DNA from: Paracoccus sp. (in: a-proteobacteria)
Lineage (GTDB): Bacteria; Pseudomonadota; Alphaproteobacteria; Rhodobacterales; Rhodobacteraceae
Assembly: GCA_030538425.1 (NCBI GenBank)
Contig: JAUNTZ010000019.1
Location: 1-48,353, forward strand
Reading direction: 5' to 3'
DNA: 48,353 nt
A program made the position numbers and the translations under genes. The notes below the pieces were generated by a model. That model was given only the letters and a program-made list of their open reading frames with translations, had not been told where the DNA came from and did not search any database. Each line of letters opens with the position of its first letter. The stretch's first letter is position 1. Below, piece after piece: positions 1 to 44,945 of this stretch.

Positions 1-1
1 G

Positions 2-262
2 TCGTCGAACAGCTCGAACAACTCGTCGAGCAATTCGTCCAGCAACAGCTCGTCGAACAGCTCGAACAACAGCTCTTCGAACTCGTCCTCGAACAGCAGT
101 TCGAACAGCTCGTCCAACTCGTCCAGCAACAGTTCGTCGAATTCTTCGAGCAACAGCTCGTCGAACTCCTCCTCGAACAGCAGCTCGAACTCGTCCAGCA
201 ACTCTTCCTCGAACAGCTCGGATGACGACGATGATGACGGCAGCAATGACGACGACGATTGA
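2..262 (+). CDS. C-terminal end of a Ser/Asn-rich low-complexity protein (partial)
   Basis: The gene enters from the left edge. The frame starting at base 2 reads about 70 codons of almost pure Ser and Asn in SSN/SSSN repeats. It then reads a short acidic tail of Asp with Gly, Ser and Asn, and stops at TGA 260-262. All three forward frames are open across most of this stretch; frame 1, rich in Glu/Gln/Leu/Val, runs to a stop at 223-225. The reading frame is therefore not proven by openness. I prefer frame 2 because it ends in the acidic tail and is followed closely by a strong hairpin. The family is not recognised. Ser/Asn repeats of this kind are usually disordered linkers or surface tails, but without the N-terminal part no function can be given. 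Confidence 0.5.
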   Translation, partial: SSNSSNNSSSNSSSNSSSNSSNNSSSNSSSNSSSNSSSNSSSNSSSNSSSNSSSNSSSNSSSNSSSNSSSNSSDDDDDDGSNDDDD

Positions 263-1128: not shown

Positions 1129-2295
1129 ATGCCCGTCAAGAACCGCTTTGCCGAAATGCTGCCCGAGATCACTAAATGGCGGCGTGATTTTCACCGCCAC
1201 CCCGAACTGGGCTATGACGTTCACCGCACCGCCGGGCGGGTGGCCGAATTGCTGCGCGCCTTCGGGGTGGATGAGGTGGTCGAAGGCGTGGGCCAAACTG
1301 GCGTTGTCGGCGTGATCCGGGGCCGCAGCGACAGCGCGGGCCGGGTGATCGGACTGCGCGCCGATATGGACGCGCTGCCGATTATTGAGCAGACCGGCCT
1401 TGACTATGCCTCGACCACGCCCGGCATGATGCACGCCTGCGGCCATGACGGCCACACCGCGATGCTGCTGGGCGCGGCCCGCTATCTGGCCGAGACGCGC
1501 AATTTCGACGGCACCGCCGTGGTGATCTTCCAGCCCGCCGAAGAGGGCGGCTCGGGCGGGCTTGCGATGATCGAGGACGGGCTGGCGGAGCGCTGGAACA
1601 TCCAGGAATTCTACGGGATGCACAATATGCCGGGCATCCCGGTGGGTGCCTTTGCGATGCGCGAAGGCGGGATCATGGCCGCCGCGGATGAGTTCAACAT
1701 CACCATCACCGGCAAGGGCGGCCATGCTGCCAAGCCGCATGATTGCGTCGATCCGGTGCTGATCATGGCGCAGGTGATTACCGCGCTGCAATCGCTTGTG
1801 TCGCGCAATGTCGATCCGCTGCGTGAGGCGGTGGTGTCCTGCTGCGCCATCCAGACCGATTCCACCGCGCATAACGTGATCCCGCAGGTGGTCAAGATCC
1901 GTGGGACCGCGCGCAGCCTAGACGCCGCCGTGCGCGACCAGTTGGAGGCCGGGATCAGCCGCGTGACCAAGGGCATCGCGCAGGCCATGGGCGCCGAGGC
2001 GGAGGTCGATTACCGGCGCGGCTATCCGGTGACGGTGAACCATCCGGCCAATACCGCCTACGCGGCCGAGGTCGCGCGCAGCATTTCCGCCGATGTGGAC
2101 ACCAATGTCGAGCCGATGATGGGCGGCGAGGATTTCAGCTTCATGCTCAACACCCGCCCCGGCGCTTATATCTTTGTTGGCAACGGCGACAGCGCAATGG
2201 TCCACCACCCGGCCTATAATTTCAACGACGAGGCGATTCCCTTCGGTGCAAGCTGGTATGCGGGGATGGTCGAGGCGCGGATGCCGGTTGGGTGA
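1129..2295 (+). CDS. M20 family amidohydrolase (hippurate hydrolase / N-acyl amino acid hydrolase type)
   Basis: This is a 388-aa cytoplasmic metallo-hydrolase of the M20D group, which cleaves N-acyl amino acids such as hippurate. The normal family landmarks are present: RRDFHRHPEL at 18-27, GLRADMDALP at 75-84, and HACGHDGHTAM at 102-112 with metal ligands Cys104 and His106. They continue with PAEEG near 136-140, His165 in FYGMH, GGEDF at 332-336 and the final ligand region HHP at 359-361. Length is typical and the ORF is intact. ATG 1129 is preceded by AAAGGAG at good spacing. Substrate cannot be told from sequence. Its last 80 or so codons are repeated in a decaying tandem array directly after the stop codon (2296-3672). 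Confidence 0.93.
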   Translation: MPVKNRFAEMLPEITKWRRDFHRHPELGYDVHRTAGRVAELLRAFGVDEVVEGVGQTGVVGVIRGRSDSAGRVIGLRADMDALPIIEQTGLDYASTTPGMMHACGHDGHTAMLLGAARYLAETRNFDGTAVVIFQPAEEGGSGGLAMIEDGLAERWNIQEFYGMHNMPGIPVGAFAMREGGIMAAADEFNITITGKGGHAAKPHDCVDPVLIMAQVITALQSLVSRNVDPLREAVVSCCAIQTDSTAHNVIPQVVKIRGTARSLDAAVRDQLEAGISRVTKGIAQAMGAEAEVDYRRGYPVTVNHPANTAYAAEVARSISADVDTNVEPMMGGEDFSFMLNTRPGAYIFVGNGDSAMVHHPAYNFNDEAIPFGASWYAGMVEARMPVG

Positions 2296-3672
2296 GGGGT
2301 GCTTGCAAAAGCCAAGAGCGCGCAATGGCTCGGGGGCAGGGTTTGCGGCCTGATTTGCTCTGACTCGGCGGCCGAGGGTTTCAGCTTCTTGCTCGGCGCA
2401 CGCCCCGGCACAGATACTTTCGCATGCCAATGGCGACGGCGCTATGGTCGACCAACCGGCCTATAGTTTCAACGACGAGCCCATCCCTTTGCCGCACGCT
2501 GATGCGCGGGGATGGCTGGCGGGCGAATGCCGGTTGGGTGAGGCAGGGGTGTTTGGCGTAGCAGACGCCAAGCCGCGCATTTCGTTAGGAATGGGTTTGC
2601 AGAAAGTTTTCCTCTGAACCGACAGCACGAGGATTTCAGCTTCATGCTCAACACCGGCCCCGGCAAAGATACGTTCGCATGCCAATGGCGACGGCGCTAT
2701 GGCCAACCCACCCGCCTATAGTTTCAACAACGAGCCCACCCCTTCGCCGCACGCTGCTCTGCGGGCATGGTCGAGGCTCGGTCGCCGGTTGTGTGATGGT
2801 AGTCGCGAGGATTGGTGCAGTTGGGGCGACGATCACGCTTGGTTCAAGGGAGGGGTTTGCGGCATGTTTGCTCCGACCCAGCGGGCGAGTATTTCCACTT
2901 CATGTTCAACGCCTGGCCCTCAACAGATATCTTTGCGGGCCAATGGCGACAGCGCAATTATCCTCCACCCGGTCTATAATTTCAACGACGAGCCCACCCC
3001 TTCGCCGCACGCCGCTCTGCGGGCGTGGTTGAGGCGCGGGTGCCGGTTGTATGAGGGCGGGTGCCGGGTATTGGCACTGCAAAGCCCAGAGCGAGCATCG
3101 GTCAGGCCATAGGAGGCGCGCGTCGTTGTTGCTCTGATAGGGTGGGGTGGAGTGAGGGTTTCCACTTCACGCTTAACGCCCGGTCCGGCGGCTATATCTT
3201 TGTCAGCAACGGCGACAGCGCGATGGTCCACCGCCCGGCCTATAATTTCAACGACGTGCCCATTCCTTTCAGCGCAAGCCGGTGCGCGGACATGGCCTAG
3301 GCGCACATTCGGCTGGCTGACGGCGGTGCCACGGATTGGCGCAGCAGATGCCAAGGCTGGGCATTGGTTCGAGGATGGGATTCGCGGTCCGTTTGGCTCC
3401 GATCCCATGGGGCGAGGATTTGAGCTTCATGATCGAAACCCATCCCGGCACCACCTTCTTCTCAGATAAATTGCGACCGTGCGATAGCTCACCACCGTGC
3501 CTATAATTCCAAGGACGAAGCGATTCCCTTCGGCGCAAGTTGATATGTGGGCAAGGTCGAGGCGCGGATGCCGGTTGTGTAGGGCGGATTCCGAGGATTG
3601 CGCAGTAGAGGCGACGAGCGCATGTTGCCTCCCCGATGTGGTTTGCGGTCCGTTTTTTGCTCTGATCGGCAT
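2296..3672 (+). repeat. Tandem array of decayed copies of the M20 gene 3' end
   Basis: Six further units follow the gene's own terminal segment (about 2050-2295): 2296-2541, 2542-2796, 2797-3054, 3055-3320, 3321-3582 and a truncated one 3583-3672. The spacing between equivalent stop-codon positions is 246, 255, 258, 266 and 262 bases. Anchors recur in each full unit. Words like gag-gatttcagcttc lie at 2128, 2374, 2629, 2887, 3154 and 3414; CCTATAATTTCAACGACG-like words and GCGGATGCCGGTTG-like ends follow. The first 80 or so bases of every unit resemble each other and, more weakly, the gene around 2050-2127. Most units carry frameshifts and stops. The unit with its anchor at 3154 stays aligned to the gene without gaps for 49 codons (about 82% identical by hand count). 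No other gene is credible here. Confidence 0.9.
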
Positions 3673-4041
3673 GTGGCGTTGGTCCTTGAAGCGTTTTTCA
3701 AAGCAGCGCTGACGGCATCGGAGGCGGGCCATAGCGCGGTCTGCCTCGCCAAAGCTGCGGTTTCACGCGGCGCCTTATGCAGCGAAGATAGCAAGCCCAG
3801 CCTCGACCATCTTTGTTGCGGCATGTCTCGGGGGCTTTCACGGGCTGTTATCCGCGTTGCGTGTAACCGCGCCCGCGATGATCACGGCGCGCACACCTAC
3901 GGATGCTTTACCGCACCAGCTGCATTGCGCGGGGCCAACGCCCTCATATCGCTTCACAAAGACGCTATGTCGCTGAAATAAATGCGCCGTCGGGCGGTCT
4001 CTGGGCTAGGCTGGGCGTGAGAGTGGTTTGACGAGGTTATC
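3673..4041 (+). other. Non-coding or decayed stretch between the repeat array and the next gene
   Basis: About 370 bases without a convincing gene. An open frame runs through to 3981 on the plus strand, but its Cys/Arg/Ser-rich translation and poor codon pattern look like chance. The resemblance to the M20 tail units fades after about 3670. The promoter of the downstream exported-protein gene should lie near the right end. I saw no clear consensus boxes and no mobile-element signature. Confidence 0.4.
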
Positions 4042-35448: not shown

Positions 35449-35534
35449 GCGGGCGGGTGCCTCCGGCGGGGATATTTGTGGACAAAAGACAAGGCCGCGC
35501 GGCCTGCTTCTTCTGTGCGCAAATACTCCGGGGT

Positions 35535-42970: not shown

Positions 42971-44611
42971 ATGCTGCGCGAGCTGAACATCCGCGACATG
43001 CTGCTGATCGACCGGCTTGACCTGCAATTCGGGCCGGGGCTGAACGTGCTGACGGGTGAGACCGGAGCGGGCAAGTCGATCCTGCTGGACTGTCTGGGCT
43101 TTGTTCTGGGCTGGCGTGGTCGGGCCGAACTGGTCCGCGCGGGTGCCGATCAGGGTGAGGTCGTGGCGGTGTTCGACCTGCCGCCCGACCATCCGGGCCG
43201 CGCGATCCTGTCCGAGGCGGGGTTTGCGCTTGAGGATGAGCTGATCCTGCGGCGCGTGAACAGCCTTGACGGGCGCAAGACGGCGTGGATCAACGACCGC
43301 CGCGCCACGGGTGAGGTGCTCCGCGCGCTATCGGAAACTTTGGTTGAGCTGCATGGCCAGCATGATGACCGGGGGCTTTTGAACCCGCGCGGGCATCGCG
43401 CGCTTTTGGACCAGTTCGCCGGGCTTGATCTTGGCCCGGTGCGGGCGGCTTGGCGCGAATGGCGGGCGGCGGGGGCGGCTTTGGCCGAGGCTGAGGCCGG
43501 GATCGAGGCCGCCCGGCAAGAGGCCGAATATCTGACCCATGCGGTTGCTGAACTCGACAAGCTGGACCCGCAACCGGGCGAGGAGGCCAGCCTTGATGTG
43601 GCGCGCCGCGCCATGCAGGGGGCCGAACGCATCCGCGGCGATGTGGCCCGCGCCCTGCAAATGCTGGGCTCTGAGGGGGCCGAGGGCGCGATGCTGGACG
43701 CGAACCGCTGGCTCGAGGGCGTGGCTGACCGCGCCGAGGGTCAGCTTGATGCCCCGATTGCCGCGCTGTCGCGCGCGCTCTTGGAACTGGGTGAGGCTCA
43801 TGCCGGGGTCGAGGCCGCCTTGCAGGCGATGGAGTTCGACCCCCACGCGCTTGAGACGACCGAGGAACGGCTGTTTGCGCTGCGGGCCTTGGCGCGCAAG
43901 CATGACGTGCAGCCCGATGATCTGGCGGGGCTGGCGGGTGAGTTGCGGGTGCGTCACGCGGGCATGACTGATGCCGACGAAAACCTTGAGACGCTGCGCC
44001 GCGCGGCGCAGGCGCTTGGCGCGGCTTATGAGGATGAGGCCCGCGCGCTCAGCGCCGCCCGCCGCAAAGCCGCCGCTCGTCTGGATCAGGCCATGGCGGC
44101 TGAGCTTGCGCCTCTCAAGATGGAACGCGCGGTCTTTGAGACCCGCATAACCGATGCCGAGCCCGGGCCTGAGGGCGTCGATGCGGTCAATTTCACCGTT
44201 GCGACCAATCCCGGCGCGCCGGCGGGCCCGCTGGACAAGATCGCCTCGGGCGGTGAGCTGTCGCGGTTTCTGCTGGCGCTGAAGGTCTGTCTGGCGCGGG
44301 GCAATGACGCGCTGACGATGATTTTTGATGAGATCGACCGGGGCGTGGGTGGTGCTACGGCAGATGCGGTGGGCCGCCGTCTGGCGCGGCTGGCCGAGGA
44401 TGCGCAGGTTCTGGTCGTGACCCATAGCCCGCAGGTCGCCGCCCTTGGACAGCGCCATTTCCGCGTCGCAAAGGCGGTCGAGGACGGCATGACGCTCTCC
44501 ACCGTCACGCCGCTTGACGCCGATCAGCAGGTCGATGAGATCGCGCGGATGCTGTCGGGCGAGGAGATCACCCCCGCCGCGCGCGATGCCGCACGGGCGT
44601 TGCTGGGTTAG
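42971..44611 (+). CDS. recN: DNA repair protein RecN
   Basis: RecN is an SMC-like ATPase for double-strand break repair. The 546-aa product has Walker A GETGAGKS at 29-36, the Q-loop region ELHGQHDDRGLL, a long central coiled coil rich in Ala, Glu and Arg (about 150-360), and the ABC signature ASGGELSRFLLALK (about 425-438). Walker B with the D-loop MIFDEIDRGVGG and the H-loop VVTHSPQVA follow. Length and C-terminus (ITPAARDAARALLG) are normal. The last 59 residues plus stop codon (bases 44432-44611) are duplicated directly downstream. Confidence 0.97.
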   Translation: MLRELNIRDMLLIDRLDLQFGPGLNVLTGETGAGKSILLDCLGFVLGWRGRAELVRAGADQGEVVAVFDLPPDHPGRAILSEAGFALEDELILRRVNSLDGRKTAWINDRRATGEVLRALSETLVELHGQHDDRGLLNPRGHRALLDQFAGLDLGPVRAAWREWRAAGAALAEAEAGIEAARQEAEYLTHAVAELDKLDPQPGEEASLDVARRAMQGAERIRGDVARALQMLGSEGAEGAMLDANRWLEGVADRAEGQLDAPIAALSRALLELGEAHAGVEAALQAMEFDPHALETTEERLFALRALARKHDVQPDDLAGLAGELRVRHAGMTDADENLETLRRAAQALGAAYEDEARALSAARRKAAARLDQAMAAELAPLKMERAVFETRITDAEPGPEGVDAVNFTVATNPGAPAGPLDKIASGGELSRFLLALKVCLARGNDALTMIFDEIDRGVGGATADAVGRRLARLAEDAQVLVVTHSPQVAALGQRHFRVAKAVEDGMTLSTVTPLDADQQVDEIARMLSGEEITPAARDAARALLG

Positions 44612-44791
44612 CGGGTGTGGGGCCTTGGTGGGTGGCGCATGTGGGTGGCGAAGGCGGTGGATTATTGGGTGCCCCTCTCCACGGTCACGCCGCTTGATGC
44701 CGATCAGCAGGTCGATGAGATCGCGCTGATGCTCTCGGGCGAGGGCATCACCCCCGCCGCGCGAGATACCGCGCGGGCCTTGCTGGCCTAG
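44612..44791 (+). repeat. In-frame tandem copy of the recN 3' end (180 bp)
   Basis: The 180 bases after the recN stop are a gapless copy of bases 44432-44611, including the stop (TAG 44789-44791). The last 117 bases are about 90% identical by hand count (12 differences, 7 of them silent). The first 63 are only about 56% identical. The copy is open in the recN frame and reads the LSTVTPLDADQQVDEIA segment and ends ITPAARDTARALLA. Without a start codon or ribosome-binding site it is not an independent gene; it could be reached only by reading through TAG 44609-44611. Confidence 0.93.
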
Positions 44792-44945
44792 CGGGAGTTA
44801 ATCACTGGCGGGTCGGGCATGTGCGGGCCAAGGGCTTTTTGCAGAGAGCCGGGCAGCATTACGGAATACCGATCAAGCCCCTCGGCCTTGAGGCATCGGT
44901 CCCGCCGTCCACAAAAACTCGGCGGCACTCCAGCCCGCTTGGCAA
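44792..44945 (+). repeat. Probable third, decayed copy of the recN 3' end
   Basis: Right after the second copy, GGCGGGTCGGGCATGTGCGG (44808-44827) matches GGTGGGTGGCGCATGTGGGT in the second copy. Further on CCGATCAAG and GAGGCATCGGTCCCGCCG match CCGATCAGC and GAGGGCATCACCCCCGCCG. About 25 bases are missing relative to the full unit and the frame is lost. It resembles the second copy more than the gene. Confidence 0.55.

Follow-up and report, generated by a model that had tools for sequence, protein, structure and literature searches.

Decayed tandem copies of a gene end behind an M20 amidohydrolase gene: an array that appears neutral, one of many short tandem duplications across the genome of a Paracoccus lineage

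Intact genes lie next to truncated homologous copies of themselves in silent-cassette loci, of which pilE/pilS, vlsE and msp2 are examples. Tandem duplication is the usual first step in gene amplification, and duplications of ~100 bases between short repeats arise in flap-nuclease mutants (yeast rad27, E. coli polA). Bacterial minisatellites (VNTR) also consist of tandem units, some of them intergenic, which grow after the first duplication. The natural rate and placement of tandem duplication are hard to see, because the copies get lost. Spontaneous rearrangements in Salmonella are reported at short similarities, with deletions enriched between genes (PMC3411829), and de novo tandem repeats are described as bordered by direct repeats of 3-8 bases (PMC4169377).

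In this work we have analysed a window of 48,353 nucleotides of Paracoccus sp., by which we mean the whole stretch of DNA, in which partial copies of the end of an M20 family gene follow that gene in tandem. The array shares with silent-cassette loci the intact gene beside truncated copies, but, as far as can be judged from the sequence, it differs from them in showing no sign of conversion into the parent, in a parent that is not variable and in units that appear to decay neutrally; moreover, unrelated enzyme genes are affected in this genome. As in the short-junction tandem duplications (PMC3411829, PMC4169377), the copies are in tandem and gene-breaking events are selected against; a few young junctions, judged partly by eye, seem to have a short similarity as well. 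However, those are single events, under selection or in culture, whereas here dozens of duplications have been fixed, some of them multi-unit (six units at M20, about ten at polA), they are decayed and 3' ends dominate. Minisatellites have tandem units and growth after the first duplication in common with our sites, but at the latter the smallest shift ranges from 66 to 565 bases, the units are often gene tails with a stop, the copies have diverged strongly and sites are about 26 times as dense as in the relatives sampled. The duplications of flap-nuclease mutants are of similar size, about 100 bases, and lie between short repeats, as some of ours may do. Unlike in these mutants, PolA of our genome appears complete, all 890 positions of the family model being matched with no stop, which speaks against a missing or broken PolA as the cause. 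Events of this kind are known; what surprises is how dense they are here, their bias to 3' ends and the gradation of their ages within a single genome. Among the titles and abstract openings of the literature matches listed, none describes genome-wide gene-tail arrays in bacteria, which is weak evidence.

The tail array behind the M20 gene

The parent gene (Table 1) is intact, as the first-pass annotation had stated. Its product matches PF01546 (Peptidase_M20; E 1.3e-48) and PF07687 (M20_dimer) in the Pfam search, and full-length matches with 70-80% identity are present in 33 of 36 same-genus genomes searched. Comparison of the region with itself gave the expected series of diagonals at ~250-base spacing (offsets 244 to 1286, E down to 4e-154), and the tandem-repeat finder TRF reported a period of 255 with a score of 699. 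The claim that the gene end is repeated therefore stands, but the claim of a unit of 246 gene bases does not: the unit consists of ~173 bases of gene end, stop included, and 70-99 bases of 3' spacer, the tail-to-tail spacing being 243-270 bases. Homology to the downstream copies begins at about 2117-2128 of the gene. Among the spacers, 13 of the 15 pairs are mutually similar, no more than 1 of 500 shuffles attaining their scores; the pairs S3-S1 and S3-S2 have scores reached by 152 and 84 of 500. The gene bases 2040-2122 show no likeness beyond chance to S0-S4 (101-431 of 500 shuffles reach the score) and a weak likeness to S5 (14 of 500). Since these 83 bases before the tail have no counterpart beyond chance in S0-S4, and most spacer pairs are alike, we take tail plus spacer as the repeat unit. 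There are six tail units in all, U0 within the gene and five copies downstream; six downstream copies had been claimed, but the supposed truncated sixth is a spacer without a tail. The copies are adjacent and in direct orientation, as they are at recN and the other sites read, and the earlier description of them as 5'-truncated and mostly frameshifted was correct.

Table 1. Positions of the M20 gene, its array units and the recN-like duplication in the window
Feature	Position	Strand	Basis or similarity
M20 family amidohydrolase/peptidase gene, intact, 388 aa, array parent	1129..2295	+	ORF; Pfam
U0, tail part of the unit within the M20 gene, last ~173 nt including stop	2123..2295	+	homology start
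S0, spacer part of the first unit	2296..2365	+	resembles S1-S5 (0-1 of 500 shuffles)
U1, decayed tail copy, frameshifted	2366..2541	+	78% to U0
S1, spacer copy	2542..2626	+	spacer comparison
U2, decayed tail copy; frameshifting indels common to U1, U2, U3	2627..2795	+	79% to U0
S2, spacer copy	2796..2882	+	spacer comparison
U3, decayed tail copy	2883..3053	+	79% to U0
S3, spacer copy; resembles S0, S4, S5, not clearly S1/S2	3054..3152	+	spacer comparison
U4, decayed tail copy, most of its length without frameshift	3153..3318	+	78% to U0
S4, spacer copy	3319..3412	+	spacer comparison
U5, decayed tail copy	3413..3583	+	76% to U0
S5, final spacer copy, no tail after it	about 3584..3678	+	spacer comparison
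recN-like gene, 546 aa, parent of the second tail duplication of the window	42971..44611	+	PF02463 SMC_N
recN-like 3' end with stop plus spacer, two units, period 180, 81% identical	44465..44833	+	

How have the units evolved? Changes private to U1-U5, scored against the parent and its orthologue in genome G065, with changes common to related units counted repeatedly, are distributed over codon positions 1, 2 and 3 as 51:48:48 (of 272, 255 and 220 sites compared), whereas the parent and the G065 orthologue differ by 1:4:12. Even U4, although its frame is mostly kept, has an even distribution of private changes (9 of 54, 11 of 51 and 9 of 44 sites). The units, U4 included, show no coding constraint and look like neutral relics. 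U1-U3 form a clade (support 0.94) and share one extra and one missing base, and the first of these shared indel columns holds a base in U5 too; the clade and its shared indels indicate that the array grew partly through the copying of units which had already decayed. In a tree of U0-U5 and 88 distinct orthologue tails, the smallest clade containing all six units comprises 7 of the 94 tips (support 0.98). The additional tip is the G033 orthologue, at whose locus no copy of the tail was seen. A smaller tree gave no settled order for U5, the parent and the G065 orthologue. In seven columns where the parent has a base that is rare among orthologues, 21 of the 35 cells of the units show the parent base and 7 the common one. 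The units thus derive from the M20 3' end, as the first-pass annotation had it, and not from several paralogues, clustering with the parent in the tail tree. The ratio of tail to body protein identity is 1.11 for the parent against 25 near relatives and 1.06 among the relatives themselves (296 pairs); judged from these identities, the parent tail is not diversified or fast-evolving relative to its relatives.

Among 125 genomes of the genus, our own (G000) included, the array was seen in our genome only; a further strain of the same species was not found. In the others, coverage among the matches listed, which do not include the match of G099, falls within the first 187 of the 1553 query bases and so extends little beyond the gene tail. 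No M20 tail copy was found downstream of orthologues at any of 109 loci (95 loci, best chance match E 0.001; 14 loci, searched at E 1e-6), a total that includes overlaps within the same genomes; of the 97 loci in the first orthologue set, 92 have at least 1300 bases downstream. The best-matching named loci belong to Paracoccus species, which places the genome in the Paracoccus group. Within our assembly the unit occurs in this one place only. The 16 matches in plasmid records are all from Rhizobium or Phyllobacterium and none covers more than 80% of the query, the best 5 of the 16 covering about 8%. Just 3' of the M20 orthologue of Paracoccus luteus (L048:6334-7396) we observed fresh tandem repeats without an M20 tail copy, two copies at 100% with a spacing of 87 and about four copies at 90-97% with a spacing of 222.

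Short tandem duplications across the genome

The first-pass annotation treated the M20 locus as a single oddity, a frame which proved too narrow, since many loci in this genome show such arrays. We surveyed the window and 60 other stretches for direct repeats of at least 60 aligned bases, with a spacing of up to 700 and E no higher than 1e-6, covering 1,009,256 of the 2,685,480 bases (37.6%) of a draft assembly of 92 contigs which is 86.6% complete. The survey gave 42 sites that do not lie within a single gene and 6 that do. The raw count for the former was 43, because a sampling boundary cut through one site (L133:19483 and L216:37), which enters the 42 once but the set of 49 sites used below for placement twice. 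In relatives, 1,873,849 bases held 3 sites not inside one gene (L145 of G065, L048 and L070) and 4 inside genes: 1 and 3 in 40 control stretches (657,528 bases), 2 and 0 in 80 control loci (828,107 bases), and 0 and 1 in 20 further stretches of near and draft-quality relatives (388,214 bases). The density is about 42 sites per Mb in our genome against 1.6 per Mb in relatives, for which some loci and stretches of the same genomes overlap, and the ratio to the first 1,485,635 control bases is 20.6 (p = 1e-13). Genes were called with a home-made codon model which was trained on our genome and also used for the controls. The best identities at our sites span 68-96%, which suggests a long-running duplication process, and the excess over the sampled relatives suggests that an unusual kind of copying error has long been at work in this lineage. 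At some of the 42 sites (both L129 sites, L171 and L220:16100) the copies lie well apart and not head to tail.

Gene ends are repeated at many of the surveyed sites, for example at recN, aroC and polA. The window holds a second such duplication, at a gene which we presume to be recN from its SMC_N family match. The ten parents chosen for a Pfam check are ordinary genes: chorismate synthase, an NqrA-domain protein, a 2-hydroxyacid dehydrogenase, a sodium:sulfate symporter-type protein, a phosphate acetyltransferase-domain protein, an ABC ATPase, formate-tetrahydrofolate ligase, an exonuclease-domain protein, a CobB/CobQ-like protein and RecN. Directly behind polA (L208:2429-3452) we counted by eye about nine copies of its 3' end, decayed but almost all with the stop, and a motif count gave nine unit ends including that of the gene itself. 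This array, too, is present only in G000 of the 125 genus genomes; in 106 of the others the match covers no more than about 125 of 1019 bases, and 18 have no match. The coding part of a unit has a median length of 104 bases (27 tail cases). At some operon junctions (L176, L181) the unit spans the tail of one gene and the head of the next, and both open frames are intact.

With respect to genes, the 49 sites comprise 19 with a tail only, 2 with a head only, 6 with tail and head, 1 with two tails, 1 with two heads, 14 with neither and 6 inside genes; a possible in-frame head duplication (L172:6384) was counted as inside, so that head-only sites could number 3. Random placement of the same periods would put 71% inside genes, compared with the observed 6 of 49. 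All six gene-internal shifts are multiples of three, some of them perhaps belonging to ordinary repeat proteins, while the shifts of the other 43 sites divide as 15/13/15 by their remainder modulo three. The avoidance of gene interiors, together with the frame kept inside them, indicates that selection removes frame-breaking copies and that the sites are evolutionary events, not assembly noise. Random placement yields tails and heads equally often, whereas tail-only sites outnumber head-only sites by 19:2 (p = 2.2e-4), a skew which exceeds the prediction of a simple frame filter (0.179 vs 0.180). Units with both tail and head are near expectation (6 of 42 vs 0.176), so heads as such seem to be tolerated. 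Arrays contain 24 of 700 stops but 8 of 700 starts. Are duplicated promoters and starts costly, or are 3' ends targeted? Either could produce the 19:2 skew, and the tail-plus-head counts lean slightly to targeted 3' ends.

Junctions and candidate causes

At the young junctions the shared bases number about 8 at L132 (by eye), 3 at L181:12416 and 0 at both L177 and L207:520, which is compatible with slippage or template switching; old junctions such as those of M20 are unreadable for break-point similarity. The junction of a 93% identical tail duplication at L177:14063-14266 is, by eye, a near-perfect inverted repeat. Hairpins after stops were rejected as the cause, as folding in the 60 bases after the stop does not differ between array genes (23; mean -21.5) and others (338; -20.9; p = 0.67). 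The G+C content of these 60 bases is 0.67 at array genes and 0.64 at others. Convergent neighbours are found at 11 of 24 array genes and 197 of 676 others, an enrichment that is not significant (p = 0.11). Reverse transcription of mRNA ends is disfavoured, because the units at operon junctions continue into the next gene. An all-against-all comparison, made in search of a motif or dispersed element that the break points have in common, gave scattered short matches but no sequence present at many sites. A REP-like element of ~30 bases (window 35459-35490) has 23 matches in 1.01 Mb of our genome, 3 of them inside called genes, and 1 match in 1.05 Mb of relatives, the query having been taken from our genome; it is near just 2 of the 49 repeat sites. 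A low-complexity Ser/Asn-rich coding repeat is present at the contig start (window 1-225), with a similar stretch at L128:16862-17016.

PolA, MutS, RecJ, RecG and RecA of our genome cover their models fully or nearly so and contain no stops; RecG scores below the curated cut-off, as it does in 7 of the 9 genomes searched. A gene for Ku (NHEJ) was not found in our 86.6%-complete assembly, while it was found in 10 of 12 other same-genus genomes searched. As G006 and G010 were the two in which Ku was likewise not found, its lack does not seem to be a sufficient cause, judged on one 20-kb stretch of each of these genomes.

Origin and meaning of the arrays

We think it likely that the rate of short tandem duplication has been raised in this lineage and that selection filters the products, so that the harmless ones gather at gene ends, the M20 array being no store of cassettes. 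On this reading, a segment reaching from 173 bases before the M20 stop to ~70-100 bases past it would have been copied in tandem once in the lineage; the probable route is slippage or template switching at short sequences that happen to be alike. The array would then have expanded to six units, partly from units already out of frame, as the indels of U1-U3 testify, with the extra units drifting free of codon constraint, as their even codon-position counts attest. The same process may have acted across the genome over a long time, to judge from the range of identities, and would have left the dozens of sites, many of them tail-plus-spacer arrays, that we observed in the surveyed part of the assembly. 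Gene ends would accumulate the survivors, because a tandem copy there leaves an intact gene in front, whereas inside genes only frame-keeping copies were observed. An added mutational preference for 3' ends is possible. Among the three options of the first-pass annotation, which also included a recombination reservoir and relics of tandem paralogues, a by-product of template switching or repeated duplication at the gene end is the one that fits.

In addition to whatever selection does, could the process itself be aimed at gene 3' ends, through something linked with the end of transcription (termination, R-loops, collisions)? We hold this to be doubtful, although the excess of tail-only over head-only sites and of stops over starts within arrays speaks for it, as does the near-expected number of tail-plus-head units, which implies that start regions are not strongly barred. 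Folding after stops is no stronger at array genes, however, convergent neighbours are not significantly enriched, and several units (L176, L181) enter the next coding region, that is, they do not stop at a terminator. It is likewise a tentative proposal that a process of this lineage preferentially duplicates gene 3' ends, padding the genome with stop-bearing tails, that it continues and that its cause is a change private to the lineage. It seems very improbable that the downstream units are a silent reservoir which recombines into the M20 gene end and varies the protein. An intact gene followed by partial copies that lack the 5' part would suit such a role, but the parent tail is as conserved as in relatives and not accelerated, the units mostly carry frameshifts and decay evenly over codon positions, and unrelated enzyme and housekeeping genes such as polA, aroC and formate-tetrahydrofolate ligase share the layout.

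The arrays would be an artefact if overlapping contig ends of divergent strains had been joined in tandem during assembly of a metagenome. The contig number and completeness of the draft, from which a metagenome origin is guessed, and periods within the range of read lengths would agree with this. We nevertheless regard it as highly unlikely, since false joins would ignore genes, yet the sites avoid gene interiors and those inside keep the frame; joins do not produce arrays of six and about ten units with ~70% identity, and draft relatives that are 86-90% complete showed no sites outside genes in the parts sampled (G014, 140 kb; G019, 136 kb; G132, 32 kb). We give hardly any credence to an origin of the units from several tandem M20 paralogues, once full-length, each of which would have lost its 5' part separately. 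Long direct repeats spaced by ~1200, as expected of tandem paralogues, do overlap the M20 gene at six loci (L053, L059, L081, L109, L110 and L111), but the units share both the start position within the gene and the spacer, and U1-U3 have indels in common.

The M20 array is old and apparently neutral. It belongs to a set of short tandem duplications that extends over the genome, lies most often at gene ends and is special to this lineage among those sampled. For annotators it is a warning that partial copies behind a gene are not necessarily cassettes. A genome that keeps dozens of duplications of graded age beside near-empty relatives is a natural experiment, in which the rules of break points, the filter of selection and the fate of gene-tail copies can be read directly. 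The gene which determines the rate of duplication should come to light when sister strains are compared.
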